From Cytophagales bacterium (lineage in GTDB: Bacteria; Bacteroidota; Bacteroidia; Cytophagales; VRUD01): a stretch of 64,000 bases of DNA. Where the stretch lies: NCBI GenBank assembly GCA_019456305.1, contig VRUD01000006.1, positions 1 to 64,000 of the forward strand. Reading direction: 5' to 3'. The notes under the pieces were generated by a model. That model saw nothing but the letters and a program-made list of their open reading frames with translations, ran no database searches and was not told the origin of the DNA. How positions within the stretch are numbered: position 1 is the stretch's first letter; every line of letters begins with the position of its first letter. Shown piece after piece: positions 23,100-56,468 of this stretch. Position numbers and translations under genes: made by a program.

Positions 23100-23108
23100 A
23101 AATTTGTA

Positions 23109-24782: not shown

Positions 24783-24784
24783 GA

Positions 24785-26347: not shown

Positions 26348-26360
26348 CCAGCTACCAGTA

Positions 26361-27089: not shown

Positions 27090-27107
27090 AATTTTAAAAA
27101 TTAATTG

Positions 27108-27767: not shown

Positions 27768-27768
27768 T

Positions 27769-27832
27769 GTTACTGGTTACTGGTTTCTGGTTTCTGGTTT
27801 CTGCATACTGCTTACTGCCTACTGCCTACTTT
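27769..27832. repeat. TACTGGTTTCTGG repeat block in the nar operon
   Basis: Tandem variants of TTACTGGTTTCTGG followed by TACTGCCTACTGCC fill the gap between narH and narJ. The same family codes for the N-terminus of the transporter ending at 26347. Confidence 0.8.
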
Positions 27833-27833
27833 T

Positions 27834-29384: not shown

Positions 29385-29392
29385 GATTATTT

Positions 29393-29479
29393 ACAATTTA
29401 GAATAATTAGATATTAGATATTATGTATTATGTATTGTCTATTGTCTATTGCCTCAACATAAATGTTGAGCTACTATGA
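29393..29479. other. Short AT-rich repeat gap between narH and narG
   Basis: Contains TTAGATATTAGATATTATGTATTATG-like tandem motifs, a TCTATTGTCTATTG run and CAACATaaATGTTG. No gene. Confidence 0.6.
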
Positions 29480-33094: not shown

Positions 33095-33185
33095 TTTTAT
33101 TTACGATTTATGATTTTAGATATTGTTCTATTGTCTTTCGAGTTTCGAATTTCGAGTTTCGAGTTTCGAATATTGTCAACTGTTT

Positions 33186-34256
33186 TCAAATGTCAACTGA
33201 TTTAATTTGTCTCTCATAGATTTCGTGATTCACGCTTCTTTTTTTCCTGTTAAACCAGAAGAAATAAAAGAATCCTAACAGGGTGATCGCTCCGGGAATG
33301 CCTCCATAGAGCATCACCATACCATAATTCCTTGTGTGCTGGTAAATATGTTGTTCATCGGCATATTTTAAGAATCCTGATATATCTAATATCTCCTGTT
33401 CTGTTAACCGGTTATTTCGATATGCCTGCTTCATAACAAGGAATGGAGTGTTGTTCAATATTGCTTTTACTCCTGCTTCATTCAACCTTGAAAAAGCTGT
33501 TGTCAGATCTTTTGCCAGAACACCTCCTGCAAGGATGGCATCATTCTTTATATGATGACAGGAATTGCAAGAGGGGCCACCGTTTTTAAAACGGTTTATT
33601 CCCACAAAAAGATTTTGTCCGTTTAGGATATTTGCTTCAGTGATCTCTACAGCGGGTTGTTCTTTTTTTTCTTTTGCTACCTTTTTTAAATAATAGGTTA
33701 ATGAATCAGTTTCCTGATCTTTTATTTCGCCTGTTTGTTTGGCTATTGCTTCGGTGGGCGCTTCTTCGAAACTTTGACTGATGATATAGCCGATGATTAT
33801 TTTTATTTCCTCATCAGAGATGCCCGGATCGGGCATTGTTATTTTATTGAATTCCTCAAAAAGGGCAACAGCATCAGCATCTCCGCTTTTGATCATAGTT
33901 TGAGACGATCTTACAAAATTGACGATCCATTCTTCTGTATGCCTTTTATGGACGTTGGCCAAATCAGGACCAACCAGTTTTCCTTCATTGACTGTATGGC
34001 AGGCGGAACAATAATCTTTGAATAGCGTTTCACCCTGATCCTGAGCTAATGGAGTAAAGGGAGACAGGTTTCCGAAAGTTAGAGTTGGCAGCGGCAGCAG
34101 CAGGAGGCAGGACTGCCAACTGCCGCTGCCTACTGCTGCTTGTTTGTATAGATATGCCTGTCCTGAAGAGCCTGTCCCGACAAGTCGTGAAAGTGAAGGG
34201 ATCCCAGCAAATATTATACAGATCAATAAGCTGGCACGCATTAAAATTTTCTTCAT
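33186..34256 (-). CDS. Diheme c-type cytochrome, first gene of the nar operon
   Basis: 356 aa. Two heme sites: CSACH (83-87) and CNSCH (230-234). One C-terminal membrane helix (about 313-335) is followed by a basic tail. The first heme domain is a paralogue of the cytochrome at 9656. A cytochrome gene heading nar clusters is known in Thermus (narC), where it acts in electron transfer; similarity of role is inference. The leader is odd: residues about 33-60 between the signal core and the heme domain are encoded by a GGCAG-rich inverted repeat. The promoter has two Fnr-like boxes. Confidence 0.85.
   Translation of the reverse strand: MKKILMRASLLICIIFAGIPSLSRLVGTGSSGQAYLYKQAAVGSGSWQSCLLLLPLPTLTFGNLSPFTPLAQDQGETLFKDYCSACHTVNEGKLVGPDLANVHKRHTEEWIVNFVRSSQTMIKSGDADAVALFEEFNKITMPDPGISDEEIKIIIGYIISQSFEEAPTEAIAKQTGEIKDQETDSLTYYLKKVAKEKKEQPAVEITEANILNGQNLFVGINRFKNGGPSCNSCHHIKNDAILAGGVLAKDLTTAFSRLNEAGVKAILNNTPFLVMKQAYRNNRLTEQEILDISGFLKYADEQHIYQHTRNYGMVMLYGGIPGAITLLGFFYFFWFNRKKRSVNHEIYERQIKSVDI
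34082..34140. repeat. GGCAG-family inverted repeat inside the diheme cytochrome gene
   Basis: GTTGGCAGCGGCAGCAGCAGG and CTGCCAACTGCCGCTGCC are inverted partners, read in frame within the leader of the cytochrome. The same family lies after moaE at 8398. Confidence 0.8.
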
Positions 34257-34635: not shown

Positions 34636-37600
34636 ATGAAAAACAAAAACAGAGACCCTATAGCCATAATAGGAATCGGCTGCAAATTTCCCGGAGGTTC
34701 AAATACTCCGGAAGAGTTTTGGAAACTTATATGTGAAAAAACAGACGCAATTTGTGATATTCCACCAGACCGTTGGGATATTGAAGCTTTATACGCACCT
34801 GATTTCAACCGGCCCGGTAAAATGAATGTTAAGAAAGGGGGCTTTGTAAAAGAAATTGACAAGTTTGACCCGGGATTCTTCGGCATTTCCCCCCTTGAGG
34901 CATCACGTATGGATCCTCAGCACCGGATGCTGCTTGAAGTAGCATACCATGCCATTGAAGATGCAGGAATATGCCTCGAAGATCTTTCGGGTTCACGCAC
35001 ATGTGTATTTACCGGTATTTCCTCTCATGATTATGGTGATATTCAAAATTCACCATTAGAGCAAGTGAACATCGGAGCACACACAAACGTTGGTTCAGCA
35101 TTGTGCATTTCGGCCAACCGCATCTCCTATACATTTAATTTAAAAGGGCCGAGCTTGTCTATTGATACTGCTTGTTCTTCCTCTTTACATGCAATCCATC
35201 TGGCTTGCCGGAGCATTTGGTCAGGAGAATCGGACTTTGGCTTTGCTGGAGGCGTAAATGCAATATTAAAACCCGAGCCGCAAATAGGATTCAGCAAAGG
35301 TGGTTTTCTCTCTCCGGATAGTGTATGCAGGTCTTTTGATGCAAAGGCAAACGGATACATACGCAGCGAAGGAGCAGGATTTGTTTTTCTCAAACCTCTC
35401 TCTCAGGCAAAGAAAGATAATGACCGGATCTATGCAGTTATCCATGGTTCTGCTATCAACCAGGATGGGGCCACAAAGGGTATCTCCGTTCCCAGCCAGG
35501 ATGCCCAAACAGAAATGCTGAAAGACGCATATAAGGATGCCGGGATTGACCCGCATAAAGTTCAATATGTAGAAGCCCACGGAACCGGAACACTAGTAGG
35601 AGACCCTATCGAATCCACAGCTATCGGTACAGTTATTGGGACAAATAGAGATGATATTTGTTATATTGGCTCTATAAAATCTAATATAGGACACCTTGAA
35701 CCCGCTTCCGGTGTGGCAGGATTTACTAAACTGGCTCTCGCACTGAAACATGGGATCATTCCGCCAAACATACACTATGAAACTCCTAATCCTGAGATCC
35801 CTTTTGAAGAGCTGAAACTAAAAGTGCCAACTAAAATAGAGAAGTGGCCGAATCATAGGGAGGGTCGTTTTGCCGGAGTAAATTCTTTCGGTTTTGGCGG
35901 CTCTAATGTCCATGTAGTCCTTGAAGGTTTGTCGGACAATGATCATAAACCCAAAACCAGGAAGAAAAAAGACCTGCAGCTTTTCACCGTATCTGCAAGA
36001 AGTCCTGAAGCTATCAATGATTACGCTAAATTATATATAGATTTCTTAAATGATAAGGAAAACAAAGTAAGTTTGAATGATATCTGCTATTCGGCAGGAG
36101 TAAGGCGCACTCATCACAACAATCGTTTGACGGTCGTTGCCGGATCTAAAAAAGAATTAGCGGAAAACTTACAGGTCTTTTTAAGTGGTGAAACAGTGAC
36201 AGGCATCTCTTCCGGGCGTGCTGACTTAAAAAAGGACAAAATAGTGTTTGTCTTTTCAGGACAAGGCCCTCAATGGTGGGGGATGGGCAGGCAACTGCTG
36301 GAAAACGAACCCCTGTTCAGGAAAAATATTAAAAAGTTAGATGTCATGCTCAGCAAATATGCGGATTGGTCGATAATTGAAGAGCTTAATAAGGATGAAA
36401 AAACATCACGTATCAGCGAAACGAATATTGCTCAACCTGCCATATTTGCGATCCAGATAGCGCTTTATGAAATGTGGAAAGCAGTTGGAATCACTCCTGA
36501 CGCTGTTGTTGGACATAGCATCGGAGAGGTGGGGGCCGGCTATGCCTCCGGAGCATTGACTCTTGAGCAAGCCGTTATGCTGATTTTTCACAGAAGCCGT
36601 GTCCAATTCAAGGCTACAGATAAGGGAAAAATGCTGGCAGTAGGATTACCTTATGAAGAAGCTAAGGGTATTATCAATGGCCTGGAAGGTAAAGTTTCAG
36701 TTGGCGCTGTGAACGGCCCTGCCATGGTAGCCCTGTCAGGAGACACTGATGTTATTGAAAAAATAGCTAAAGATCTTGAAAAAAAGGATATTTTCAATCG
36801 CATGCTAGAAGTGAGAGTACCTTTCCATAGTCACCACATGGAACCGCTCAAAGAAGAACTTCTTAGTTCATTAAAAAGCATAAAACCATCTGCCACTAAA
36901 ATTCCATTTTATTCAACCGTTGAAGGTAAAAAGATCGAAGGCAAAAAACTGGATTCGATGTATTGGTTCCATAATGTCAGAAAACCCGTACTTTTCATTA
37001 CTGCTATTGAGGAAATGATTAATGACGGGTTCGATACATTCATTGAATTAGGCCCGCATCCTATTCATGCTATCGGTATTAATGACCTGTTTTCTGTTAA
37101 AAAGAAAGATGGTCTGGTTGTCCCGTCCCTGAGGAGAAAAGAAGATGAAAAACGCACCTTCCTTTCATCCGTTGGATCACTACATACCTGGGGATGCAAA
37201 GTGGATTGGAAAACATACTTTGGCGATGATAATAATTTTGTTTCATTACCTAAATACCCATGGCAAAAAGAGAGATATTGGATAGAAACCGAAGAAGGAA
37301 CTAAAAAACGGTTGGGTTCTTATGAACATCCTCATTTAACACGCAAGACATCTTCCGCAAGAGAAAGCAATAACATACTATGGGATATCACATTAGATAA
37401 GAGAACTTATCCCTATATTGAAGATCATAAAGTTCAGGGACCAATCGTATTTCCCGGGGCAGGGCATGTTGAGCTTGCCATTTCTGCAGCCCGGGCATCT
37501 TTTGGAGAAAAATTCGAATTTTTGCAAAACCTCAATTTCACAAGTGCGTTATTCTTACCTGATGAGGGAGAGCCACCTCATATCCAGATGGATATATCTC

Positions 37601-40600
37601 ATGACGGAGGCGACTATTTCATCTATACCAAACCCAGGAGCCAGGATGCCTCCTGGGCGATGTGCTCCAACGGGAAAATAAATCACATTGGAGATGATTT
37701 TAAATCCATAAAGGTCGATCTTAAAGACATCCGCAAGAGAGTGAATATTCCGGTGGAAGTTAAAAAAATGCATGAGGAGCTGCTGGAAAGTGGACTTTAC
37801 CTGGGGCCTTCTTTCAAAAATATCAAAAACCTTTGGAGAAGTGACGGGCTTTGGGAAGCGCTGAGTGAGATAGAAGTAGATGAAACTATTCGCTCGGAAT
37901 TCTTCCAGTTCAACCTCCACCCGGGAGTGTTGGATAGCTGCTTTCAAACAGTTTTCGGGATTTTTAACGAAAGATTTGATGCAAGTAAAAAAATGGGAGT
38001 TTATATCCCCGTCCATATTGACCGGGTTAAATTCTATCAAAAACCCAATTCGCATAAGTTATATGTGCATGGCAAGTTAAGGGAATGGACAGATGAATAT
38101 GTTTTGGGCGAATTGTGGATCTTCAATGAAGACGGAGAGCTCGTTGCAGAATTTCACGGTTTCCGGTCTCAATACCTGAAGGGCTCGAGAGGAGAAGCAG
38201 GTGGTGAGCAAGACAAATGGTTTTATGAATTCAACTGGAACATGAAAACCAGGACAGACCAGGAGCTGGTTCGCAATCCGGGAGAATATATTCCATCACC
38301 AAACTCCATTAAAAAAGGCGTTCAGGAAACTATAAAAGAAATTGTTAAACGAAAAGAACAGGACGAATATTACAAGCAATACGAACCGGAGCAATACCAG
38401 CTCACAATAGGATATATCTGCAATTCTTTGAAGGAGATGGGTATGTCTTTTAAGGCAGGAACTAAAATCAATACCGGGAAATTAATAAAAGAGTTTGAAA
38501 TAGTTGAGGAGCATCATCGCCTTTTTAACCACATGTTTCATCTCCTGAAAAATGCAGGTATCGTTAAAGGGGAGGCCGGTAAGTATGAAATAATAAAAAC
38601 TCCTGATCTAAGAGATGTCAATTCATGGATGGAAGAGCTGAATAACAAATACCCCCAGTTTCATCATGAATCAACCTTGCTGGGCCGCTGCGGGCCTGAG
38701 TTAACAGGAGTATTGACAGGAAATGTTGATCCCATACTTTTAATTTTCCCCGAAGATCAATGGGATGCCATTGTCAAATATTATGTGGAGGGATTCGCCT
38801 TTAAAAAATACAATGATATTGCGGCAAAGGCGGTATCAGAGCTGTTGAAAGACATTCCCGAAGATCAAACAATAAGGGTGCTTGAAATTGGTGCCGGCAC
38901 GGGCGGAATGACCCAGGCCGTCCTTCCCCTGTTACCTCCTGAAAGGACAGAATATATTTATACTGATATTTCCAACATGTTCATGATGAAGGCACAACAG
39001 AGGTTTGCCAGGTATCCTTTTGTTCAGTATAAGGTCTTAGACATTGAGAAAGACCCTGCAGAGCAGGGACTTGACCTGAACTCCTTCGACATCATCGTTG
39101 CTTCGGATGTCATTCATGCAACACGCGAGTTGAAAACCACGCTTGGCAATGTCCAAAAACTGCTCGCTTCAGAAGGTGTATTGATGATGTTAGAGGTAAC
39201 AAATTCACCGGTTTACTTAGATTTCATCTTTGGCATGACTGAAGGATGGTGGTTGTTTGAAGATACGAATATCCGGCCCGATCATGCGACCATGAGCCCG
39301 GATAAGTGGAAAAAGGTATTGGAAAACCTTGAATATTCCGATGTGGCCGTTTACACCGATTTTGAGAAAAACGACTCTTCCTGCCAAAGCGTTATCCTTG
39401 CGCGCGGTAAAAAATTGGAGCTGGTCAATAAAACAATAGAAGAATCGCCTAAGCTGGGTGAAGCCGACTGGCTGATATTTGCCGACAGCACCGGTGTTGC
39501 TGATAAGATACAAAAGAGATTAAAAGCGATTGACAAGCAATGCTTTGTCATTAAACGCGGACAAGATTTCAAGAAAATAAGTGATACGGAGTTTGAAATA
39601 GACCCATTGGCACAGGAAGGGACTGACAAGGTCATTGATCTGGTTGCCGGCAGGAAAAAATTCCAGGGGATTATCTTCCTGTGGGGTCTGGATTCCGTTG
39701 ATAACAAAAAACTCAATGTTGAAAATATTATCCGTTCAGAAGAGAATTCAACAATCACGTTGATGAATATCATGAGGAAACTGAACGATACAAACTATGA
39801 GAAAAATCCTGAGATATGGATCATTTTCAGTGGCGCTCAAACTGTCGGTGGTACTCCCAAAACCCTGAACCTTTCCCAAACGGGACTAAGAGGCGTCAGT
39901 AAGGTTGCTATGAATGAATTCCCGGTTTTCAACTCAACCCTGGTTGATTTTGGCAGTCCTGTTCAGGATGATGAGATCGAGGCATTCATAGAAGAGATCC
40001 TTGCCAACGACAGGGAGGATGAGATCGCTTTCAGAGGCAAGAAACGTTATATAAACCGGTTAGAGAGAATTTCGACTGACAGCATAGCACAACGGGCTAT
40101 GAAAACAGTTCCGGCAGAGGGTTCAAGCTACACTACCTCCATTTCAGAATACGGTGTGCTCGACAATCTTATTATCCGTGAAACTCCCCGAATAGTACCT
40201 GGCGATGATGAAGTAGAAGTTAAAATAAAAGCTGCCACTCTCAACTTCCGTGATATTATGCTGGCTATGGGATTGCTTCCGGATCTGGCGATTGAAGGTG
40301 GCCTTTTCGGCAGGAACTTCGGCCTTGAATGTTCCGGCATTATCACTGCTATAGGAAAAGACGTCAAAGACGTTAAGGTCGGTGATGAGGTGATGGCTAC
40401 CGCACCCTCTTGTTTAAGCGGTTTTGCTTACCCAAAGGGCTGTCATATAGTTAGAAAACCAAAAAACATCAGTTTTGAAGAGGCAGCATGCTTGCCAGTG
40501 GTTTATGTTACTGCTTATTATTCCCTGATACATCATTGCCGCATGCGAAAGGGAGAAAAAGTGCTTATCCATGCTGCCGCAGGAGGCGTTGGCATTGCTG

Positions 40601-43047
40601 CAATTCATATTGCCAATGCAGTAGGGGCAGAAGTTTACGCAACAGTAGGCAGCCCGGAAAAAAGAAAATACATCGAAAGCATCGGTGTTAAGCCTGGAAA
40701 TATATTGAACTCACGTACCTTGGAGTTTGCCGACCGGATCATGGAGCTTACCGATGGCAAAGGTGTTGACATTGTACTTAACTCACTTTCAGGAGAAGCC
40801 ATCTATAAAAGTGTAAGGTGTTTAGCCCCTTATGGCAGGTTCGTGGAAATCGGCAAGACAGATATTTACAGAAACAGCAAACTGGGCTTGCAGCCGTTCG
40901 GAAACAACTTATCCTATTTCGGGGTGGATGTTGACCGGCTTTTCAAGCAAAAGGAAAAATTTGGCGGTGAGCTTTTCCAGGAATCCATTGATTTCTTTGT
41001 GAAAAATAAATTTCCCGTTCATCCCATCAAGACATTTCCTATCTTAAAGATTGCCGATGCCTTTCAATATATGGCGGGAGCCAGGCATATTGGCAAGATT
41101 ATCATCTCCATGGAGGGAGACGTGAAGGTAGCGCCACCGGAAGAGATACAATTTAAAAAAGACCGCACTTACGTGATCACAGGCGGTGCTTCGGGTTTCG
41201 GACTGGCAATTGCCAATTGGATGACAACCAAGGGAGCCAGGCACCTCGTGTTGGGGAGCAGAACCGGCCCTAAAACAGATGAAGAAAAGGCAATAGTTGA
41301 AAAAATGAGGGAAAAAGGCGTGAACGTCATGCTGGCAATGGGAGATGTATCTAAAAAACAAGATGTTCTCAGGGTGGTAAGCGACATAAAAAATAACATG
41401 CCCCCGGTTGCCGGCATACAACACGCAGCAATGGTATTGGATGACGGAGGCATACCCGAGATAGATCACGAACGCTATATGAAGGTCTTTAAACCAAAAG
41501 TATTGGGATGCTGGCTGCTTCATCTTGCCACGAAAGACCTGGATCTCGACCACTTCATTTCATATTCTTCGATTTCGGCTGTTTATGGTAATCCCGGCCA
41601 GGTAAGCTATGTGGGCGCCAACAGTTTCCTTGACAATTTCTCATCTTTCAGAAGATCGCAGGGATTGCCCGCTACGACCATCAATTGGGGCGTGATCGGT
41701 GATGTAGGGTTTGTAGCGAGAAGCGGTAATGTCGGTGGATTATTATACAAGCAGGGCTGGAAAGCCTTTACCCTGGACCAGGCAACCAGTATATTTGAGC
41801 AAATACTGTTAAACAACCCCGTGCAAAGGGTTGCAACGGATTCTGACTGGGAAATGATAGGAGAATTTTATCCTCATTCTGCTAAGACAAGTCGTTTTGG
41901 CAACCTTATCAAAGAAAAGAAATTAACCGCCTCTTCAGGAGCTGGCTCCGGGGACGGAGCGCTTAAATCAACGTTGCTTGAATCAAGCCCCGAAGAGCAA
42001 TATGATATTTTAATTGATCAGTTAAAAGATACTTTTGCCAGGGTACTGGGCACCACTTCTGATAAAGTGGACGTTATTGAACCGGTTACAAAATATGGAC
42101 TGGATTCATTGATGGCTAACCAGATCCGGAACTGGATACAAAGCAACGTATCTGTTGACTACTCCATGATGCGCATTATGAAAGGCCCGACAATAGAAGA
42201 GATGACAGTTCAGATATTAAGTGAATTTGAAGGTCAGTCAAATGGACAGGAACAGCAACAGGAACAAAGCAATGAGCTGGATAAATGGATCATTCGCACC
42301 AAAAAAGTTGATGATCCGAGACTGCGCCTGTTCTGCCTGCCGTATTTTGCCGGAGGCGCCTCTGCTTACAATGGCTGGCATGAGCTGCTGCCGGACGATA
42401 TAGAGGTTTGTGCTATTCAATATCCCGGCAGGGAGGAACGGTCTAATGAGAAACCCTTTAGTGATGTTGCTGACCTAATCAAAGCGATGGCAGACGCCAT
42501 GGAACCGTTATTAGACCGTCCTTTCGCTTTTTACAATCACAGCGCCGGAGCAGGCGTGGGACTGGAATTAGCGAGATACCTGAGAAAAGAAAAAGGAATT
42601 GAGCCGGTTAAATTTATTGTCGGTGGCTGGAAAGCGCCACATCTCGTAAGCCCGTTCAAATTCCTGGATGCTATAAAAGATGACGAAGTTTACGAAGAAA
42701 AGAACATCCCTAATATCATCAACCATTTAAGATCGTTGGAAATTCCCGATGCCGTTCTTCAAAACAAAGAGTTGATCAACGAGATGCTTCCGTCATTGCG
42801 TGCCGATATATTGCTCGGTAAAAGATATAAATATTACGAAGACAAACCGCTAAGCTGTCCGCTCATGGCTATTGCAGGAAAAAATGACACGGTTTTTACG
42901 GAAAAGGAGTTAAAAGCATGGAAAAAACATACTTCCGCAGAATTCAACTTCATAACAATAAACGGCAGCCACCTCTTCTGCAGAGACAATAAAGAAGAAC
43001 TTCTTGAAATATTAACGCATGAATTGGGCGAACTTGTTGAGGCGTAA
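34636..43047 (+). CDS. Single-module highly reducing type I polyketide synthase (KS-AT-DH-MT-ER-KR-ACP-TE)
   Basis: 2803 aa. Domains with active sites seen: KS, Cys180 in DTACSSS and the later His motifs (VEAHGTGT, SNIGHLE); AT, Ser628 in GHSIGE, with VPFHSHH suggesting malonyl; DH, His931 (HKVQGPIVFP) and Asp1100; C-methyltransferase, SAM motif LEIGAGTGG at 1416-1424; ER, Gly-rich AAAGGVGIAA about 1980-1989; KR, TGGASGFG at 2182-2189 with Ser2312, Tyr2325 and Asn2329; ACP, Ser2491 in YGLDSLMAN; thioesterase, Ser2636 (NHSAG) and His2779. All domains look active, so one complete reductive cycle with C-methylation is encoded. With no second module it probably works iteratively, making a saturated methyl-branched chain released by the TE. 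First gene of the plus-strand cluster. Confidence 0.95.
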   Translation: MKNKNRDPIAIIGIGCKFPGGSNTPEEFWKLICEKTDAICDIPPDRWDIEALYAPDFNRPGKMNVKKGGFVKEIDKFDPGFFGISPLEASRMDPQHRMLLEVAYHAIEDAGICLEDLSGSRTCVFTGISSHDYGDIQNSPLEQVNIGAHTNVGSALCISANRISYTFNLKGPSLSIDTACSSSLHAIHLACRSIWSGESDFGFAGGVNAILKPEPQIGFSKGGFLSPDSVCRSFDAKANGYIRSEGAGFVFLKPLSQAKKDNDRIYAVIHGSAINQDGATKGISVPSQDAQTEMLKDAYKDAGIDPHKVQYVEAHGTGTLVGDPIESTAIGTVIGTNRDDICYIGSIKSNIGHLEPASGVAGFTKLALALKHGIIPPNIHYETPNPEIPFEELKLKVPTKIEKWPNHREGRFAGVNSFGFGGSNVHVVLEGLSDNDHKPKTRKKKDLQLFTVSARSPEAINDYAKLYIDFLNDKENKVSLNDICYSAGVRRTHHNNRLTVVAGSKKELAENLQVFLSGETVTGISSGRADLKKDKIVFVFSGQGPQWWGMGRQLLENEPLFRKNIKKLDVMLSKYADWSIIEELNKDEKTSRISETNIAQPAIFAIQIALYEMWKAVGITPDAVVGHSIGEVGAGYASGALTLEQAVMLIFHRSRVQFKATDKGKMLAVGLPYEEAKGIINGLEGKVSVGAVNGPAMVALSGDTDVIEKIAKDLEKKDIFNRMLEVRVPFHSHHMEPLKEELLSSLKSIKPSATKIPFYSTVEGKKIEGKKLDSMYWFHNVRKPVLFITAIEEMINDGFDTFIELGPHPIHAIGINDLFSVKKKDGLVVPSLRRKEDEKRTFLSSVGSLHTWGCKVDWKTYFGDDNNFVSLPKYPWQKERYWIETEEGTKKRLGSYEHPHLTRKTSSARESNNILWDITLDKRTYPYIEDHKVQGPIVFPGAGHVELAISAARASFGEKFEFLQNLNFTSALFLPDEGEPPHIQMDISHDGGDYFIYTKPRSQDASWAMCSNGKINHIGDDFKSIKVDLKDIRKRVNIPVEVKKMHEELLESGLYLGPSFKNIKNLWRSDGLWEALSEIEVDETIRSEFFQFNLHPGVLDSCFQTVFGIFNERFDASKKMGVYIPVHIDRVKFYQKPNSHKLYVHGKLREWTDEYVLGELWIFNEDGELVAEFHGFRSQYLKGSRGEAGGEQDKWFYEFNWNMKTRTDQELVRNPGEYIPSPNSIKKGVQETIKEIVKRKEQDEYYKQYEPEQYQLTIGYICNSLKEMGMSFKAGTKINTGKLIKEFEIVEEHHRLFNHMFHLLKNAGIVKGEAGKYEIIKTPDLRDVNSWMEELNNKYPQFHHESTLLGRCGPELTGVLTGNVDPILLIFPEDQWDAIVKYYVEGFAFKKYNDIAAKAVSELLKDIPEDQTIRVLEIGAGTGGMTQAVLPLLPPERTEYIYTDISNMFMMKAQQRFARYPFVQYKVLDIEKDPAEQGLDLNSFDIIVASDVIHATRELKTTLGNVQKLLASEGVLMMLEVTNSPVYLDFIFGMTEGWWLFEDTNIRPDHATMSPDKWKKVLENLEYSDVAVYTDFEKNDSSCQSVILARGKKLELVNKTIEESPKLGEADWLIFADSTGVADKIQKRLKAIDKQCFVIKRGQDFKKISDTEFEIDPLAQEGTDKVIDLVAGRKKFQGIIFLWGLDSVDNKKLNVENIIRSEENSTITLMNIMRKLNDTNYEKNPEIWIIFSGAQTVGGTPKTLNLSQTGLRGVSKVAMNEFPVFNSTLVDFGSPVQDDEIEAFIEEILANDREDEIAFRGKKRYINRLERISTDSIAQRAMKTVPAEGSSYTTSISEYGVLDNLIIRETPRIVPGDDEVEVKIKAATLNFRDIMLAMGLLPDLAIEGGLFGRNFGLECSGIITAIGKDVKDVKVGDEVMATAPSCLSGFAYPKGCHIVRKPKNISFEEAACLPVVYVTAYYSLIHHCRMRKGEKVLIHAAAGGVGIAAIHIANAVGAEVYATVGSPEKRKYIESIGVKPGNILNSRTLEFADRIMELTDGKGVDIVLNSLSGEAIYKSVRCLAPYGRFVEIGKTDIYRNSKLGLQPFGNNLSYFGVDVDRLFKQKEKFGGELFQESIDFFVKNKFPVHPIKTFPILKIADAFQYMAGARHIGKIIISMEGDVKVAPPEEIQFKKDRTYVITGGASGFGLAIANWMTTKGARHLVLGSRTGPKTDEEKAIVEKMREKGVNVMLAMGDVSKKQDVLRVVSDIKNNMPPVAGIQHAAMVLDDGGIPEIDHERYMKVFKPKVLGCWLLHLATKDLDLDHFISYSSISAVYGNPGQVSYVGANSFLDNFSSFRRSQGLPATTINWGVIGDVGFVARSGNVGGLLYKQGWKAFTLDQATSIFEQILLNNPVQRVATDSDWEMIGEFYPHSAKTSRFGNLIKEKKLTASSGAGSGDGALKSTLLESSPEEQYDILIDQLKDTFARVLGTTSDKVDVIEPVTKYGLDSLMANQIRNWIQSNVSVDYSMMRIMKGPTIEEMTVQILSEFEGQSNGQEQQQEQSNELDKWIIRTKKVDDPRLRLFCLPYFAGGASAYNGWHELLPDDIEVCAIQYPGREERSNEKPFSDVADLIKAMADAMEPLLDRPFAFYNHSAGAGVGLELARYLRKEKGIEPVKFIVGGWKAPHLVSPFKFLDAIKDDEVYEEKNIPNIINHLRSLEIPDAVLQNKELINEMLPSLRADILLGKRYKYYEDKPLSCPLMAIAGKNDTVFTEKELKAWKKHTSAEFNFITINGSHLFCRDNKEELLEILTHELGELVEA

Positions 43048-43058: not shown

Positions 43059-43538
43059 ATGTTAGAGATTAGAAAAATACATCATCGCGCAACGTATAGC
43101 AACAAATTTTCTACCTGTATTAAATTCTATTACGAAAAAGTAAGTAAGCAACCCAAATTGTTTTTTGATTTGCCCCGGCCAAAACGAAAAAAAATACTTC
43201 CTAAAGTAATAGACCAACAAGATGTAAAAAAAATATTATCTGCTTTTAAAAGTCATCATCCGAAAGATTATTTGTTTGAAGGACAGTTTGGAGGCGCTAT
43301 AAGTATTCGCACCGCTCAACAATTATTTGCCAATGCTAAACGAAAAGCCGGAATACATAAAAGCGTAGGCATCCATAGTTTGAGACATAGTTTTGCCACC
43401 CACCTGCACGAACAAGGGATAGATATAAAACACATTCAGGATTTATTGGGTCATACTAATATTGCTACTACTATGCGCTACACTCATGTAAGTAAGAAGG
43501 ACTTGGGTAAAATTAAAAGTCCTTTAGATAACATTTAG
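43059..43538 (+). pseudogene. Internally deleted tyrosine recombinase (integron/Xer-like)
   Basis: 159 aa. The last ~90 residues are a recombinase core with His106-x2-Arg109 (HSLRH), His132 (LLGH) and nucleophile Tyr141 (MRYTH), ending 'KIKSPLDNI' like the Bacteroidota integron-type integrases. The N-terminus keeps only the end of the SAM-like domain ('IKFYYEKV'), and at about residue 64 the chain jumps straight to 'KDYLFEGQ'. The ~80 residues that should carry the first catalytic Arg are missing. It is thus very probably inactive. It begins 11 bp after the PKS stop and opens an accessory islet. Confidence 0.75.
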
Positions 43539-45111: not shown

Positions 45112-46512
45112 ATGCTCTATTCATTTATAAGAACAATTGTGAGGATCATCGTGTGGGTTTATTTCAGGAAGATCAATGTCCACAATGCTGAGCTCATTCC
45201 CAAAGGTGTTCCATTGATCATTGCTCCCAATCATCCCAGCTCTTTCATGGACATCATGGTTGTAGTCTCATTTATAAAGCATAAACTTCATTTCATCATG
45301 AGGGGGGAGTCGTTCAACACGGCATTTAAACGATGGTTATTTGACTACCTCCATTTGATCCCGATTTATCGTAAAGATAAAACGCCTGAACTGATGTTGA
45401 AAAACAAAGAGGTTTTTGAAAAATGTTATCAATTGCTTGCCAAAAAGGGAGCGCTTATCCTATTTCCCGAGGGCCTTAGCAAAACAGAACGAAGATTGCG
45501 GGAAATTAAAACAGGAGCAGCGAGAATTGCCCTTGGGGCAGAGGCAGCAAACAACTTTGAATTAGGAGTGCTTATTGTGCCGGCTGGCCTCAATTATTCC
45601 AATCCTCACAGGTTTCAAAGCGAGTTATTTATTAATTTTGCCCAACCCATTGATGTTTCCCGCTTTTTTGAACTGTTTCAAACGAACAAACATAAAGGGA
45701 TCGTTGCGATTACTGAGCATCTCAAAGAATGTCTTGAGCAGCATACCATTGCAATTGAGAATAAAGAATTGGATGAGTTGGTTAAAAACATAGAGACCAT
45801 ATATAAAAGCAAACTAAAGAGAGAACTTGGCTTGTCAAAGAACATAGAATATAAAAGCAAATTAGAGAGAGAACTTGACTTGTCAGAGAAAGAACAAGAA
45901 TTTATGGTGACCAAAGAGATCGTGGAAGTGGTTTTTCATTTTCACAAACATGCCCCTCAACGTGTTCAAACCTTACAAAAAAAGATTGTACGTTATGTGA
46001 ATGATATAGAACGGCTTAATCTCAAAGATCACTTATTCACTAAAAGCTCAAACCGTGGTTCTTTTATATTTGATGGTCTTAAAACATTGGCAACTATTAT
46101 AGTTGGTTTTCCCTTTTTTCTTTTTGGTGTGATCAATAATTTCATCGCCTACAAAATTCCAGATTTTCTTGCCTCTCTTTCGTCCCGTCCCGATTTTTAT
46201 GGTTCAATTACCATGGCTACAGGCATGGTTACCTTTATAGTATTTTATTCCCTGCAAATCTGGTTAGTTGCTTCGTTTACCCCCGGTGAGTCGGGATGGT
46301 GGATTACTATTGCTTATGCAGTTTCGCTTCCCATAACCGGGATTATTTCACTTTACTACTGGAGATACCTGGAGAAAATTCGCGGCCGATGGCTGTTCCT
46401 ATTCTTGTTTTACCGGAAGAGTTCTCTGATTACAAGATTGATCAATCAGCGGGAGGATATTGTAAAAACAATTGAAAAAGGAAAGAGGGATTATTTAAAC
46501 CTGCAAAAATAG
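45112..46512 (+). CDS. PlsC-like 1-acyl-glycerol-3-phosphate acyltransferase with C-terminal membrane domain
   Basis: 466 aa. The acyltransferase motifs are NHPSSFMD (40-47, catalytic His41/Asp) and FPEG (118-121). The C-terminal ~130 residues have about three to four membrane helices, a form common in Bacteroidota. Residues about 227-260 hold a tandem duplication (IETIYKSKLKRELGLSKN / IEYKSKLERELDLSEK). It may transfer a fatty or polyketide acyl chain to a lipid acceptor. It is first of a compact run (acyltransferase, RND exporter, megasynthase, PPTase, HicB, FadD). Confidence 0.8.
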   Translation: MLYSFIRTIVRIIVWVYFRKINVHNAELIPKGVPLIIAPNHPSSFMDIMVVVSFIKHKLHFIMRGESFNTAFKRWLFDYLHLIPIYRKDKTPELMLKNKEVFEKCYQLLAKKGALILFPEGLSKTERRLREIKTGAARIALGAEAANNFELGVLIVPAGLNYSNPHRFQSELFINFAQPIDVSRFFELFQTNKHKGIVAITEHLKECLEQHTIAIENKELDELVKNIETIYKSKLKRELGLSKNIEYKSKLERELDLSEKEQEFMVTKEIVEVVFHFHKHAPQRVQTLQKKIVRYVNDIERLNLKDHLFTKSSNRGSFIFDGLKTLATIIVGFPFFLFGVINNFIAYKIPDFLASLSSRPDFYGSITMATGMVTFIVFYSLQIWLVASFTPGESGWWITIAYAVSLPITGIISLYYWRYLEKIRGRWLFLFLFYRKSSLITRLINQREDIVKTIEKGKRDYLNLQK

Positions 46513-46581: not shown

Positions 46582-48726
46582 ATGAAATTGCCAGAATTCA
46601 ATGATCAAATAGCAAAAAAAAGCTCTCAAATAGCATTAATCATGATCTTTTTGATTACGGTGGGTTTACTGTATGCTGCAATAACTAATCTTAAACTAGA
46701 TAGTACTTTTGAAACGCTTTTCCCAAAAGATGACGAAGAAACCAAGCTGTTTTTTGAGCACAGGAGAGAATTTGGTACTGAAAATGATTTCGTTTTGCTT
46801 GGCATTAATAATAGAGGTGGAGTCATAGATAACATTTTCAGAAGGAAAGTTGACAGTTTGATCAATAAACTATACAAAATAAAAAATGTAATAAATGTTG
46901 TCTCACCATTCTCCGCAAACTCAAGCATCCTTAATGCAGAGAACTTAATTAGTTCAGATAGTAATTCCATTGCGCTTTATATCAAAACTGAAAATGAGCT
47001 GTCAAATTTAGAGTGCACCAAATTATCAGAACATCTTCAGGAATTAGTAGGTCAAACTGAATTCGGCAAAATACATCTTGCTGGAAGATGTATCGGACAA
47101 TCCGGATATCTAAAACTCATGCAATCAGACATGTCATTTTTTTTCAGACTTTCAATAATTTTTCTGCTACTTTTCCTTTTCTCGATTTATCGATCTTTCT
47201 GGGGCGTAGCAATTCCTATCAGTATTATTCTCATAAGCGTCATCTGGGTGTTGGGCATAATTGCATTGACGGGTGAACCAATAAACCTAATCCTGACTAT
47301 ACTGCCGACGATCATATTTGTAGTTGGAATTTCAGATGTGATTCATTTTGTTTCCAGATTCATAGAAGAGAAAAACTCCGGTAAATCAAAACTTGAATGT
47401 ATAAAACTATCTTTTAGAGATGTGGGGTGGGCTACATTTTTAACGTCAGTAACTACCTCTATCGGATTCCTTGCTCTATTATTCTCAGATGTAATTCCAA
47501 TACGCACATTTGGTTTATATACTTCTATTTCAGTAATGATTACTTATCTGGTTACAATAATAGTATTACCATCTTCATTAGTGCTCTTTAAAACTTATTC
47601 TTATCGAAATGCCAAAAAACTTGATTGGAAAAAGTTTTTAGATAATAATTTTCTATTCACTATCAGGAATCCAAGACTCATTCTGTTATCATCATTAACC
47701 TTGATTGTAATAAGTGTGTATTTTATTTCAAAAATTCATCAAAACGATTACATCCTGGAAGATCTTAAAACTGACAATCCAATTAAAGTGGATTTTACTT
47801 TTTTCGAAAATGAATTTTCGGGTGTGCGTCCATTTGAGATGAATGTAAAAGTAGTGGATACTACGAAAAATCTTCTGCACCAAGATGTCATCTCTGAATT
47901 AGAAAAACTTGAGAGTTATCTTATAAATACTTATGGGGTGAAAAATGTTACCTCGCCTTCATCCCTTGCTTATTTAACAACAGCCGGTTCACCTTTTCAA
48001 GGAAAGTTAAATTTATCCTTAGCGCTAAATAAATCGAACTCGACAATTAATACATTGAGTGATTCTACATTAAAGACTGGAAGAATTAAAGGCATGGTAG
48101 GAGATTGGGGAAGTCGATATTTTTTAAAACGTAATAATGATTTGGAAAATTTCATTCGGGAGAATATCAATACTAACCTGATTAATCCAAAGCAAACAGG
48201 AACGGCCTATCTACTAGATAAGAATAATTCAAGGATTGCAACAAATATGATCAAAGGACTTGTTTTTGCATTTATTACTATCAGTATTTTAATGGCCATG
48301 ATGTTCCGGTCATTGAAAATGCTAATAATAGCCATGGTACCAAATATATTTCCCTTGATAATACTGGGAGGGCTCTTAGGACTTACCGGACAAGAATTTA
48401 AAGTTTCAATGAGTATAATATTCACAATAGCTTTTGGTATTTCAGTTGATGACACAATTCATTTCCTAAGCAGGCTTAAAATCGAAATGTCTAAAGGGGT
48501 AAATCTAATATTAGCTATGAGAAGAACATATTTGTCAACTGGCAAAGCCATATTTTTAACTACCCTGGTTCTTAGCAGTGGATTTGTCATTCTCATGTTT
48601 TCAAATTTTTTCACCATGTACTATTTGGGATTTCTTGTAAGTATATCATTGATTATTGCCTTAGTTGCAGATCTGTATCTGCTTCCAGTTCTATTATTGA
48701 TGCTATACCCTAGGCTAAAAACTTAA
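46582..48726 (+). CDS. MMPL/RND-family lipid exporter
   Basis: 714 aa with the RND layout: a helix, a large periplasmic domain (about 40-190), five to six helices, then a second half with the same order. The helix-4 motif appears twice as 'VVGISDVIHFVSRF' and 'AFGISVDDTIHFLSRL' (Asp in a membrane helix, used for proton coupling). It resembles MMPL and hopanoid-exporter-type (HpnN) proteins that move lipids out of the inner membrane. It sits 9 bp before the A-T-KAS megasynthase gene, so it probably exports the product of this cluster. Confidence 0.8.
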   Translation: MKLPEFNDQIAKKSSQIALIMIFLITVGLLYAAITNLKLDSTFETLFPKDDEETKLFFEHRREFGTENDFVLLGINNRGGVIDNIFRRKVDSLINKLYKIKNVINVVSPFSANSSILNAENLISSDSNSIALYIKTENELSNLECTKLSEHLQELVGQTEFGKIHLAGRCIGQSGYLKLMQSDMSFFFRLSIIFLLLFLFSIYRSFWGVAIPISIILISVIWVLGIIALTGEPINLILTILPTIIFVVGISDVIHFVSRFIEEKNSGKSKLECIKLSFRDVGWATFLTSVTTSIGFLALLFSDVIPIRTFGLYTSISVMITYLVTIIVLPSSLVLFKTYSYRNAKKLDWKKFLDNNFLFTIRNPRLILLSSLTLIVISVYFISKIHQNDYILEDLKTDNPIKVDFTFFENEFSGVRPFEMNVKVVDTTKNLLHQDVISELEKLESYLINTYGVKNVTSPSSLAYLTTAGSPFQGKLNLSLALNKSNSTINTLSDSTLKTGRIKGMVGDWGSRYFLKRNNDLENFIRENINTNLINPKQTGTAYLLDKNNSRIATNMIKGLVFAFITISILMAMMFRSLKMLIIAMVPNIFPLIILGGLLGLTGQEFKVSMSIIFTIAFGISVDDTIHFLSRLKIEMSKGVNLILAMRRTYLSTGKAIFLTTLVLSSGFVILMFSNFFTMYYLGFLVSISLIIALVADLYLLPVLLLMLYPRLKT

Positions 48727-48735: not shown

Positions 48736-51700
48736 ATGTTAATGAACTTTACAACGATTATAGATTTATTGGAAAAGACTGCCGAATTATATCCTGATTC
48801 ATGTGCAATTGAAGGGCAGGTGAATAGTTGGAATTATTCTGATTTAGAAAAATCGGGAAACCAGATTGCTCATTACATCAATAACATTGCATCACAGGAA
48901 AATGTGGTTATATGTTTGGACAGGTCTGATTGGACGATTATTGCCATTGTAGGAATTTTAAAATCAGGCAACACATATGTACCTATAGATTCTTCAACAC
49001 CACAAGTCAGAATTGATAAGATTGTTGAAATAACTAAGCCTAAACTTATAATCACTGATGAAAATAATTTATCAAAGTTTAAGAATGACCAAAACGTAAT
49101 TCCTATTGACCAAATAAAATCGGCTTTATCAAAATTACCTAATAGTCCACTTAGTATTAATATCAGTGAAGATGAAATCGCTTACATTATCTTTACTTCT
49201 GGTACAACTGGTATGCCTAAGGGAATTCCTATATTACATAGGTCTTTGTTTAATAAAATTTCTCGCTTCAATCCTAAGTTGAATTTTAACCCTTCTCACA
49301 ATTTCATTCTACTTGCGTCTATAGCTTTTGACGCAAGCATTGGACAAATATTTCTACCTCTTACCAATGGATCGACTCTTCATATTATAAACAAAGAGGA
49401 ACAAAATAACCCGATTTTGTTTTGGGATTATATAATTAAAAAAAAGATAAACATACTCTATACTATTCCGTCCCTTTTAAACGCCTTATTGGAGTCACCA
49501 TTAAATTTAAAAGGTATTTCATTTGACTATATACTGTTGGGTGCTGAACTTTTTCCATCAACTCTACTAAGCAAAATCAGAGCTAAACTAACAGTCAATA
49601 AAATAGTCAATATGTATGGGCCAACCGAATCAACGGTTAACGCCATTATGCATATTATGTCTGGGAAAGATAATACTGTGCCTAACCCAATTCCAATTGG
49701 ATCAGCACTTCCTGGATACGAAATATTTATTTTGGATAAGAATAAAAATAGGGTTGAAGACGGCAATGAAGGTGAAATAGCAATAGCAGGACTAGGTCTT
49801 TCTCCGGGATATTTTAATGATCCGTCATTGACAAACGTAAAATTCCTATCAAAGGGAAAGTCGAAGACTGATAAACGTATATTTTTAACGGGTGATTATG
49901 GTAGACGTAATGCCGAAAACTACTATGAATTCCTAGGACGAAAAGATTCTCAAATAAAAATTAATGGATATCGGATTGAATTGCTTGAAATTGAAATGGT
50001 AATTAAAGACATCACTAAGGTAAAAAATTGTTCTGTCGAATTGAATCCGTCTAATAAGAATCAGATTATAGCTTTTGTAGAATTTATCTCAAATGATAGC
50101 CGTGACGATTCTGATGAGATGCTTAAAACGCATCTAAAAACAATTTTGCCATATTATATGATACCAAATAAAATCATTCAAGTGAAAGACTTTCCGATGC
50201 TTTTATCAGGAAAGCAAGATAAATTAAAACTGTTGTCACTTTTAGAAAATAATGTTACATTATCAACACAGAAGAGTGCTATTACGACCTCAATAGAACG
50301 TAAAATCATCGAAGCTTGGAAAGAAATATTTGAAATCCAGCAAGTTACTGTCGATGACAATTTTATTAACTTAGGTGGTGGATCAATTCAAAGCATTCTC
50401 TTAGTTAACAAACTTCTTAAAAGAGGCATTCGAATTGAGCCAATTGATGTTTACCTGCACCCGACAGTTACTGAATTGGCCAACGTGGCTAATGAAGTAG
50501 AACCTGAAAATCCTACCGCCATGAATGACGAAGCCCAAATTCCAAACGAGCCATTGTCCATTGAAACAAAAAAAACTGAAGACAAAAACCCGCCAAAGAA
50601 TAGGATAAGGATTGAATCTATGGGAGCTTATATTCCTGAGAACTTTGTGACGACTAAAGAAGTAATGGCTGGATGTGTTAATGAAATCACTTTCCCAATT
50701 GAAAGATTTACAGGGATTAAATCTCGACCAGTAGCAAGCTCCGATGAATCAAGCTTTGAAATTGGACAAAAAGCAATAGCTGACTGTATGAACAATTCTA
50801 AGCTCGGTGCCGATGATATTGACCTTCTTATATGTTGTAACACAGTCAGAAGTCTTGGATCTAAATGTGGACTTTTCGATCCTTCATTTGCGTTAATGTA
50901 TAAAAAAAAATTCAATTTTCAGAACGCCATTTCGTTTGATGTCAATAATGCTTGTGCTGGTATGTTTACAGTCATCGAAATAGCAGATGTAATGATGAAG
51001 AATGGAACTATTAAAAATACTCTAATAGTTAGTGGGGAACATAACACGCCCGTAATAAGAAGTGCTCAGCTCGAGTTGGTTAATGACAAGTTTGACAATC
51101 GCTTGGCCTGCCTAACTGTGGGGGATGCTGGTGTAGCAATTACATTGGATCAAACGGCAGATGGAAATGGCTTTGAGTACATTAAAATGTTAACAATGGG
51201 AGAATTGAACGACCTATGTATTGGAAAAATTGAAAGAGTTGGTCACGGTGGTCCAATAATGTACAACGATTCTGTGAAAGCAGCCGCAGCAGGAATTACT
51301 CCAGGAATTGAGCACGTTTTTCATACACTTAAATCTAAAAATTGGAGTCTAAATAGCGTAGATCATTTCATCATGCATCAAACCTCATTAACTACTATTC
51401 AAAACTCCATGAGGGAAATCAATATACAAGCTGGGGAAGAAATCGTCAGCGAAAAAAACGTAGTTATTAATCTCGAAAATCGTGGTAACACAGGGGCAAG
51501 CTGTCAGTTTCTGGCCTTGTACGATAATATTATGAATAAAAGGATAAAGAGTAATTGTAAAATTGTTTTTCCGATAAACGGATCTGGAAGAGTACTTGGT
51601 ACAGCGCTTTTTAAAATGGATGATTTGCCTGATAAAATGAATTCACCGAACAAACACAATAGGATTGAGAATAAAACAATCAATAATGATGTTGATCCTT

Positions 51701-52599
51701 TAAGATACGGAGTCAAAATTGAAGCCATGTCCGTGTATTACCCGAGAGAATCATCAGAGAGTACTACGAAAATAATGAACAAGAAAGCTGTTTTGAAGTG
51801 TCTTGCTGAGTCAGACTTAGAAAAAAATGATCTTGAATTAATTATTTATAGTGGGGTAATACGGGATGACTTTATAACAGAACCAGCTTTGGCAGCTACT
51901 ATTGCTGGTGATCTGAAAATAAATGTTTCAGGGTATAATCCGGATGGTCAATCTACCTTTTGTTTTGATGTATTAAATGGCAATATTGGAACTTTTAATG
52001 CAATACAAATAGCTTCAGAATATATCCGCACAGGGAAAACTAAAAATGCATTAGTGGTTGCATCTGAAATAGACTATAATAAAGATAATGATCACCCTCG
52101 AGCTTCTCCAAATGAGATGGGGTCGGCTCTGCTATTAAGTAGAGATGATTCAACCAATTCTGGTATGGGTAAATTTGTTAATCATTCTTCTCCGAGTCAC
52201 CCTATAGAAAAGAAAGTTTACGCTGATAGTTTGAATTCAGAAACATTCCTCAATAAGGAAACCCTGTATACAACATCAGATAATCAGATAATTAGTGCCA
52301 TAACAAAATGTATAAAAGGGACACTTGACAAGAACAAAATAGAAGTTGAAAATGTTGACACAGTAGTTTTATCCGGTGTTCAGGGAATATTATTAGATGA
52401 AATATCTAAAAATGTAGGTGTTGACATTAATACTTTCTATGTGCCGGAAAAAAATGATGAAGACCTAGGGTCGTCATCAATCATTTACCGCTTAAATCAA
52501 TATGTAAACCGCATGAGTGGTTATAAACAAAAAACAATATTAATAATCATTGAATTTGGTGATGGATTAACAACGGGAGGAGTGAGCTACGTTTTTTAA
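48736..52599 (+). CDS. Unusual megasynthase: adenylation - carrier - KASIII - degenerate KASIII
   Basis: 1287 aa. Residues about 1-510 form an NRPS-type adenylation domain: TSGTTGMPKG (154-163), FDAS with Asp199 (the Asp that binds an amino group in amino-acid-activating domains), YGPTEST (294-300), GDYGR (386-390), Lys493. The carrier has Ser550 (LGGGS). Residues about 625-965 are a KASIII-type ketosynthase with Cys740, His881 and Asn918. Residues about 995-1287 form a second KASIII fold in which these align to Asn1083, Ser1213 and Asp1243, so it cannot condense. Likely reaction: an activated amino or other acid is loaded on the carrier and extended once by KASIII. The second KASIII may be a structural partner replacing the homodimer. 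Confidence 0.85.
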   Translation: MLMNFTTIIDLLEKTAELYPDSCAIEGQVNSWNYSDLEKSGNQIAHYINNIASQENVVICLDRSDWTIIAIVGILKSGNTYVPIDSSTPQVRIDKIVEITKPKLIITDENNLSKFKNDQNVIPIDQIKSALSKLPNSPLSINISEDEIAYIIFTSGTTGMPKGIPILHRSLFNKISRFNPKLNFNPSHNFILLASIAFDASIGQIFLPLTNGSTLHIINKEEQNNPILFWDYIIKKKINILYTIPSLLNALLESPLNLKGISFDYILLGAELFPSTLLSKIRAKLTVNKIVNMYGPTESTVNAIMHIMSGKDNTVPNPIPIGSALPGYEIFILDKNKNRVEDGNEGEIAIAGLGLSPGYFNDPSLTNVKFLSKGKSKTDKRIFLTGDYGRRNAENYYEFLGRKDSQIKINGYRIELLEIEMVIKDITKVKNCSVELNPSNKNQIIAFVEFISNDSRDDSDEMLKTHLKTILPYYMIPNKIIQVKDFPMLLSGKQDKLKLLSLLENNVTLSTQKSAITTSIERKIIEAWKEIFEIQQVTVDDNFINLGGGSIQSILLVNKLLKRGIRIEPIDVYLHPTVTELANVANEVEPENPTAMNDEAQIPNEPLSIETKKTEDKNPPKNRIRIESMGAYIPENFVTTKEVMAGCVNEITFPIERFTGIKSRPVASSDESSFEIGQKAIADCMNNSKLGADDIDLLICCNTVRSLGSKCGLFDPSFALMYKKKFNFQNAISFDVNNACAGMFTVIEIADVMMKNGTIKNTLIVSGEHNTPVIRSAQLELVNDKFDNRLACLTVGDAGVAITLDQTADGNGFEYIKMLTMGELNDLCIGKIERVGHGGPIMYNDSVKAAAAGITPGIEHVFHTLKSKNWSLNSVDHFIMHQTSLTTIQNSMREINIQAGEEIVSEKNVVINLENRGNTGASCQFLALYDNIMNKRIKSNCKIVFPINGSGRVLGTALFKMDDLPDKMNSPNKHNRIENKTINNDVDPLRYGVKIEAMSVYYPRESSESTTKIMNKKAVLKCLAESDLEKNDLELIIYSGVIRDDFITEPALAATIAGDLKINVSGYNPDGQSTFCFDVLNGNIGTFNAIQIASEYIRTGKTKNALVVASEIDYNKDNDHPRASPNEMGSALLLSRDDSTNSGMGKFVNHSSPSHPIEKKVYADSLNSETFLNKETLYTTSDNQIISAITKCIKGTLDKNKIEVENVDTVVLSGVQGILLDEISKNVGVDINTFYVPEKNDEDLGSSSIIYRLNQYVNRMSGYKQKTILIIIEFGDGLTTGGVSYVF

Positions 52600-52640
52600 T
52601 GGAATTCAACATATAAATAGGCTCATATTGATTAACTTTG

Positions 52641-53414
52641 ATGCCAAATAAATTTAAATTTAGAGAAAATAATACACCCAAACTCATGCCAGATACAATA
52701 ACAAAGATCCAGGAGCTTAATTGCCCCCCGCTTTTAAAAGGAGAAGTTCACCTTTGGGGCATATCCCTTGATCTTACTGGGCAATTAATAGAACAGTGCA
52801 AATCGTTCTTGTCAGAAAAAGAAAAACAAAGGATCTCCTATTTTAAATTTGAGAAAGTCCAAAATAATTTTATCATCAGCTGGGGTGTTTTAAGGTATTT
52901 ATTATCCCGCTACATGAACAAAACCCCTCATACAATTCAAATTGAAAGGCATAAAAAAGGAAAACCCTTTGTTCCGGATGCCCCATCATTGTATTTTAAT
53001 ATGTCTAATTCGGGCAATATATGTGTTTACGCCTTTTCAGCAGATGGAGAAATTGGTATTGACCTGGAACAAATAAGGGAATTGCCCGATCTTGACGAGC
53101 TAATACAAAAAAATTTTACCGCAAAAGAAATTTCATTGATCACTCAAAATCCTGGAAATAAGTTAAATAGATTTTTCCAGTTCTGGACTTTTAAAGAATC
53201 TTATTTAAAAGCCATAGGTGAGGGAATGCGCCTGACGCCTGATAAGCTGGAGTTTACCGTTGAAGGAGAGACAATTAAATTACAGGGAATTAATGGGATA
53301 TTTGAAACAGAAGATTGGAATTTTTCAGTATTTTTGCCGGCAGAAGATTATACAGGGGCTTTGGCATACCAGGGGGAAGGAATTAAAATTAAAGAATTTT
53401 GGAATAAGTTATAA
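52641..53414 (+). CDS. 4'-phosphopantetheinyl transferase, Sfp type
   Basis: 257 aa from ATG 52641. It contains the Sfp signatures 'IGIDLEQIRELPDLDEL' and 'FWTFKESYLKAIGEGM' with the Mg-binding Asp/Glu residues. It transfers the phosphopantetheine arm of CoA to carrier proteins, here presumably PKS Ser2491 and megasynthase Ser550. The frame extends 3 bp up to a TTG, but ATG is the more natural start. It is followed by hicB after only 4 bp. Confidence 0.88.
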   Translation: MPNKFKFRENNTPKLMPDTITKIQELNCPPLLKGEVHLWGISLDLTGQLIEQCKSFLSEKEKQRISYFKFEKVQNNFIISWGVLRYLLSRYMNKTPHTIQIERHKKGKPFVPDAPSLYFNMSNSGNICVYAFSADGEIGIDLEQIRELPDLDELIQKNFTAKEISLITQNPGNKLNRFFQFWTFKESYLKAIGEGMRLTPDKLEFTVEGETIKLQGINGIFETEDWNFSVFLPAEDYTGALAYQGEGIKIKEFWNKL

Positions 53415-55839: not shown

Positions 55840-56085
55840 ATGAGTGTAAGTCAAGAAATAAGTGAAGCTATAGAAAAAGAAATATTCTTAGGAAAATATT
55901 TGATTCAAAGATATTTGGAAAAACTTAAACAGTTTGAAAAAAAATATAAAATCAAAACAACTGTTTTTGTGAAGCGGTTTGAAAAAGGAGATATGGGAGA
56001 CGACCAGGATTTTTTTGAGTGGTTGGCCATCTTTAAAGGAAAAAAACACTGGGAAAATAAGTTATTGAATCTCGAAAAAGTATGA
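55840..56085 (+). CDS. Antitoxin-like partner of the DUF6516 gene
   Basis: 81 aa, helical. 'EKEIFLGKYLIQRYLEKLKQFEKKY' followed by 'FVKRFEKGDMGDDQDFFEWLAIF' and a short terminal helix. The 'FEKGxxGDDxDFFEW' pattern is typical of small proteins paired with DUF6516 (TumE-like) toxins. It overlaps the next gene by 4 bp. Confidence 0.65.
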   Translation: MSVSQEISEAIEKEIFLGKYLIQRYLEKLKQFEKKYKIKTTVFVKRFEKGDMGDDQDFFEWLAIFKGKKHWENKLLNLEKV

Positions 56086-56468
56086 ATGTACGTGATTATT
56101 TTCAAACTGTCGAAAGCGAACTTCATTCCACTCCTCTTGTCATTTCTATTGATTTTCATACTGAGGTCATTGACATAAACTTCGGGTATTTCAAATCAAG
56201 AATTACTTTCTTCGATAGTTCCCGGTTGTACTTGTTTGAATTGGTTAAAATAGTAAAGGATACTTCTCATATCGAAAAGTATCGTTATCATTACCAGGGT
56301 AAAAATAACAAACTGATAAAAAGGTGGGATAATGCACCTCATTTTCATAAACTAACATCATTTCCTGATCATTTGCATATTGGCAGTAAAGTATTGGAAT
56401 GTACTAAACCTGAAATCAAGGATATAATGCTTGATGTTATAAAACAAATAGAGTATGGAAATTATTGA
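56082..56468 (+). CDS. DUF6516 / TumE-like putative toxin
   Basis: 128 aa. 'YRYHYQGKNNKLIKRWDNAPHFHKLTSFPDHLHIG' matches the DUF6516 family, to which the TumE toxin belongs, with the conserved 'RWDNAPH' and 'FPDHLH' His residues. With the 81-aa protein before it, this forms a type II-like toxin-antitoxin pair. It overlaps the next gene (GNAT) by 14 bp, so the pair is built into the transcript. Confidence 0.7.
   Translation: MNVRDYFQTVESELHSTPLVISIDFHTEVIDINFGYFKSRITFFDSSRLYLFELVKIVKDTSHIEKYRYHYQGKNNKLIKRWDNAPHFHKLTSFPDHLHIGSKVLECTKPEIKDIMLDVIKQIEYGNY

Follow-up and report, generated by a model that had tools for sequence, protein, structure and literature searches.

An NRPS-like A–T unit fused to a single-chain LstA/LstB-like KAS-III pair: a candidate terminal Claisen module in a Cytophagales bacterium

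In a 64,000-nucleotide stretch of a Cytophagales contig (hereafter the window), we identified an intact gene whose product carries an adenylation (A) domain, a carrier (T) domain and two KAS-III domains, KS1 and KS2, in one chain. It belongs to a family of fused KS1–KS2 proteins with invariant residues in both KAS-III domains. We consider it probable that the protein combines an NRPS-like A–T loading unit with a single-chain version of the LstA/LstB (OleA-class) KAS-III heterodimer, and that it joins an amino acid to an acyl-CoA by a non-decarboxylative Claisen reaction.

Domain organization of the A–T–KS1–KS2 protein

The gene is a single ORF, open throughout, with the following layout:

48736..52599, forward strand: A–T–KS1–KS2 gene, 1287 aa, intact
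48757..50241, forward strand: A domain, residues 8–502, with Asp199 kept and the pocket code DAGTILMVNK
50302..50484, forward strand: T domain, residues 523–583, with an LGGGS motif that includes Ser550
50596..51630, forward strand: KS1, predicted LstA-like active-type KAS-III domain, residues 621–965
51703..52596, forward strand: KS2, LstB-like KAS-III domain without the catalytic triad, residues 990–1287

Pfam matched AMP-binding at residues 12–360 (2e-65), PP-binding at 523–583 (2e-9), ACP_syn_III from residue 734 and ACP_syn_III_C at 865–960. KS2 was detected weakly in a genome search with ACP_syn_III_C (21.8 bits, under the cut-off); searched alone against structures, it matched FabH (5bqs, 9e-8). 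Together with the intact ORF, these matches bear out the domain order A–T–KASIII–KASIII given in the initial annotation.

The A domain retains both Asp199, at the position of GrsA D235, and the A10 lysine K493, and the T domain has the phosphopantetheine serine of its LGGGS motif, so that all of these hallmarks of an NRPS A–T module are present. An amino-acid-type pocket, proposed earlier from Asp199, is supported by these residues; the pocket code was assigned to no known amino acid. The condensation (C) domain of a canonical NRPS elongation module is absent: Pfam found none in the 1287-aa protein, and a whole-genome search found none either.

Fused KS pairs recur in several phyla

A scan of genome contigs with ORF analysis yielded 46 further fused KS1–KS2 ORFs, of which 35 are A–T–KS1–KS2, 2 are A–KS1–KS2, 3 are T–KS1–KS2 and 6 consist of KS1–KS2 only. 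The architecture, first described as new, is therefore shared with many other genomes: A–T ahead of a fused KS pair recurs in several phyla, for the most part as C–A–T–KS1–KS2, and is found in mycobacteria, Nocardia, Planctomycetota and Acidobacteriota. Among the complete A–T-containing ORFs scanned, Pfam identified C–A–T–KS1–KS2 in L066 and in L071 (Acidobacteriota) and FAAL–ACP–C–A–T–KS1–KS2 in L050 (Planctomycetota). In the ORFs of mycobacteria and Nocardia, some 490 residues precede the A domain, the length of a C domain, and it is by this length that their C domain is judged. All of these relatives resemble the window protein in having A–T followed by a fused LstA–LstB-like pair; they differ from it in the upstream C domain and, often, a FAAL or PKS partner. 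In the mycobacterial and Nocardia loci (L038–L073), the A–T–KS1–KS2 genes, of about 1780 aa, lie downstream of a PKS gene; an OleD-like reductase is present in several of the mycobacteria and a BagG/FevA2-like FAD oxidase in one locus (L043). In Bacteroidota relatives, KS1–KS2 is a separate protein, and its gene adjoins genes for FAAL, a luciferase-like monooxygenase, a P450 and Sfp.

For the 35 other ORFs with this domain order, and for NRPS–KASIII–KASIII proteins generally, no published product appeared in the literature searched (open-licence papers only). A JBC review mentions naturally occurring fusions in general terms only.

KS1–KS2 aligned over its full length to the fused homologues (33–37% identity) and to separate LstA/LstB-type pairs (about 26–28% identity), including that of Streptomyces toxytricini, the lipstatin producer. 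Its nearest relatives are these pairs and fusions, not FabH. A plasmid search with KS1–KS2 as query returned tandem KAS-III genes from both Rhodococcus and Streptomyces. In Streptomyces, the two genes (KAS-III, then KAS-III-like) precede those for an AMP ligase, an NAD epimerase, an NRPS and a formyltransferase, in this order, which we take to be that of the lipstatin operon. LstA/LstB-like gene pairs were also seen on two MAG contigs, one putatively from Thermoplasmatota (L097:9965-14564, with OleC- and OleD-like genes) and one putatively from Lokiarchaeota (L100:3760-5709). Phage and viral searches gave partial FabH-like matches or none.

In the KS tree, the window protein sits on a long branch (1.94) and has a shifted composition. 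Its branches are long and unresolved in both the KS and the A-domain trees, so the A–T fusion may be shared with the other fused proteins or independent of them; the A-domain tree shows no special kinship between its A domain and those of the fused family.

KS2 lacks the triad and retains an invariant glutamate

The residues on which the assignment of the two domains depends are as follows:

50953..50955, forward strand: catalytic Cys740 of KS1 (LstA C128)
51376..51378, forward strand: catalytic His881 of KS1 (LstA H271)
51487..51489, forward strand: catalytic Asn918 of KS1 (LstA N305)
51880..51882, forward strand: Glu1049 of KS2, equivalent to LstB Glu60 and OleA Glu117

Alignment confirmed the earlier reading of the triad positions, with Cys740, His881 and Asn918 in KS1 replaced by Asn1083, Ser1213 and Asp1243 in KS2. 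The KS1 Cys-His-Asn triad is present in 47 of 47 fused proteins, the window protein included. Asp715 of the window KS1 stands at a position that is Glu in each of the 46 other fused KS1 domains. The equivalent of Glu1049 is equally constant, occurring in 47/47 fused proteins (again counting that of the window) and in 34/34 separate KS2 domains, within an invariant EPA motif. Glu1049 aligns with the same glutamate of LstB-like proteins, and LstB E60 in turn aligns with OleA E117. At this position the housekeeping FabH of the same genome, the single FabH used as control, has Phe. In S. toxytricini (L110), LstA C128, H271 and N305 and LstB E60 were found exactly at their published positions.

LstA and LstB, from the lipstatin pathway, form a KAS-III heterodimer, which condenses two acyl-CoAs non-decarboxylatively. 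They share with KS1–KS2 a triad-bearing first half, a triad-less second half with an essential glutamate, the same order and full-length similarity; unlike the window protein, they are two separate proteins that use acyl-CoAs and have no A–T fusion, and their relatives are clustered with OleC-like and OleD-like enzymes. The exchanges C128A and H271A in LstA and E60A in LstB each abolish LstAB activity (review PMC12141560). OleA of Xanthomonas campestris also has the KAS-III fold and the aligned glutamate, and differs in being a free-standing homodimer with two active sites that couples two fatty acyl-CoAs. In both OleA and LstAB, this glutamate reportedly acts as a base across the dimer interface. 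Because Glu1049 is invariant and corresponds to a residue that is essential in LstB, KS2 probably supplies a catalytic residue and is not merely dead.

This changes how two proposals of the initial annotation are read, namely that the enzyme extends its substrate by one malonyl unit and that KS2 is a dead partner akin to a chain-length factor. KS1 does carry the Cys-His-Asn triad with which FabH decarboxylates malonyl-ACP, and the genome has a housekeeping ACP, so KS1 could condense the aminoacyl group with malonyl beside an inert KS2. However, this triad is also that of LstAB and OleA, which do not decarboxylate, the nearest relatives are of the LstAB type, and an inert KS2 leaves its invariant glutamate without a role. 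A FabH-type malonyl extender would have the triad in both halves and no glutamate at the OleA Glu117 site; KS1–KS2 has the triad in one half and the glutamate in the other. Given this LstAB/OleA-type residue in KS2, extension by one malonyl unit is not the best reading, and we regard it as unlikely.

Somewhat less likely again is that KS2 acts only as a scaffold while KS1 alone catalyses some other reaction. The precedent is PqsBC of Pseudomonas aeruginosa, a KAS-III heterodimer in which PqsB, without any triad residue, supports PqsC in a FabH-like pseudo-2-fold dimer (PMC4807248), and KS2 has likewise lost all three triad residues. PqsBC differs in having separate subunits, a PqsC without the Asn, a PqsB without a known catalytic residue, and octanoyl-CoA and 2-aminobenzoylacetate as substrates. 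KS2, by contrast, keeps the invariant EPA motif, whose glutamate is essential in LstB.

Predicted structure of the KS1–KS2 didomain

AlphaFold2, run on KS1–KS2 from 26 sequences, gave a model with a pTM of 0.93 and a pLDDT of 88 over both domains. The closest PDB folds were FabH, OleA and PqsD, each matching one KAS domain. The model lends support to the earlier suggestion of an intramolecular pseudo-heterodimer, in which KS1 and KS2 would fold onto each other.

Gene neighbourhood and genome content

The genes around the A–T–KS1–KS2 gene include the following:

34636..43047, forward strand: type-I PKS (KS-AT-DH-MT-ER-KR-ACP-TE), a possible acyl-chain source
45112..46512, forward strand: PlsC-like acyltransferase, in the same apparent operon as the A–T–KS1–KS2 gene
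46582..48726, forward strand: MMPL/HpnN-like RND transporter, 9 bp upstream of the A–T–KS1–KS2 gene, a likely exporter
52638..53414, forward strand: Sfp/HetI-type phosphopantetheinyl transferase, the only clear one found in the genome
53757..55538, forward strand: long-chain acyl-CoA synthetase (FadD-like), a possible source of the acyl-CoA partner

Whole-genome searches (genome 98.4% complete) found this PKS as the only type-I PKS, and three carrier domains: the T domain of the window protein, the ACP of the PKS and one on another contig that adjoins a stand-alone ketosynthase and is presumably the fatty-acid ACP. These counts, the single Sfp-type transferase and the PlsC, MMPL and acyl-CoA synthetase neighbours point to a putative single small lipid pathway. 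The layout of the PKS differs from that of the FAAL/PKS partners of the relatives, which makes its link to the A–T–KS1–KS2 gene uncertain.

A beta-lactone end product formed via OleC and OleD finds no support in this genome: an OleC-like query, run without a positive control, gave no match at E<=1e-10, and no OleD-type reductase is among the genes adjoining A–T–KS1–KS2, remote members of the 3-beta-HSD family being present in the genome. Elsewhere in the window, an integrase C-terminal fragment (43059-43538) lies between the PKS gene and the PlsC–MMPL–NRPS operon, a TumE-like toxin (56082-56468) scored 84.2 bits, just below the curated cut-off of 90, and nitrate-reductase-type genes, MFS transporters, MoaA and cytochrome c occupy 19814-34256.

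Other pathways are known to contain KAS-III acyltransferases, and the operon holds a PlsC-like gene and an exporter; KS1–KS2 could accordingly form a C–O or C–N bond in the manner of certain KAS-III-like release enzymes, with an alcohol or amine receiving the aminoacyl group. Against this, a full Cys-His-Asn triad together with the OleA/LstB glutamate is a condensing signature, invariant across the family, and we judge acyl transfer a little less probable even than a scaffolding KS2. An assembly artefact, frameshift or decaying gene, to which the long branch and shifted composition could be taken to point and which at the KAS–KAS junction was named at the outset as refuting, is very improbable, since the 1287-codon ORF is intact, its catalytic residues are all kept and the same colinear fusion occurs in 46 other ORFs from many genomes.

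Proposed mechanism

Judged from its sequence, the window protein is most likely a terminal module that would couple an aminoacyl thioester with an acyl-CoA in a Claisen reaction; we infer the substrates and the part that each plays, as well as this reaction and its product, from homology at about 26–37% identity. From the domain content and pocket, the A domain would activate an amino acid and load it onto the T domain, primed by the adjacent Sfp-type transferase. KS1 and KS2 would pack on each other as an intramolecular pseudo-dimer, which the model supports. Cys740 would then receive the aminoacyl group or, as an alternative, a fatty acyl group. Glu1049 of KS2, reaching into the KS1 active site as its identity with LstB Glu60 and OleA Glu117 suggests, would take a proton from the second acyl thioester at its alpha-carbon, and the two acyl groups would be coupled by Claisen condensation without decarboxylation. 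More speculatively, the product might leave as a beta-keto acid or thioester, perhaps decarboxylating to a long-chain amino ketone; reduction, acylation and export by enzymes encoded nearby might follow. Several points count against this explanation: an aminoacyl donor that is free and unacylated would be out of the ordinary, identity to the LstAB-type pairs is low, the window protein has its long branch and Asp715, and neither an OleC-like match in the genome nor an adjacent OleD-like gene was found.

Discussion

A broader proposal, which in our judgement falls just short of probable, is that NRPS modules with a single-chain LstAB-type didomain at their end constitute a class that spans phyla, in which a (lipo-)aminoacyl chain is released by Claisen condensation, without decarboxylation, with a free acyl-CoA at its alpha-carbon. 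As a minimal version that lacks a C domain, the window protein would make either a long-chain amino ketone or an alpha-alkyl-beta-keto-gamma-amino acid lipid.

If the mechanism is right, an NRPS line would be ended by a C–C bond to a second acyl chain, instead of by hydrolysis, cyclisation or reduction, an ending that we did not find described in the literature searched (open-licence papers). The halves of LstAB were not obtainable in soluble form separately (PMC12141560); with both LstAB-type halves in one chain, the shared active site would be easier to study. Many mycobacteria carry this fusion too, so that on this mechanism a lipid class not yet characterised may be predictable in them.
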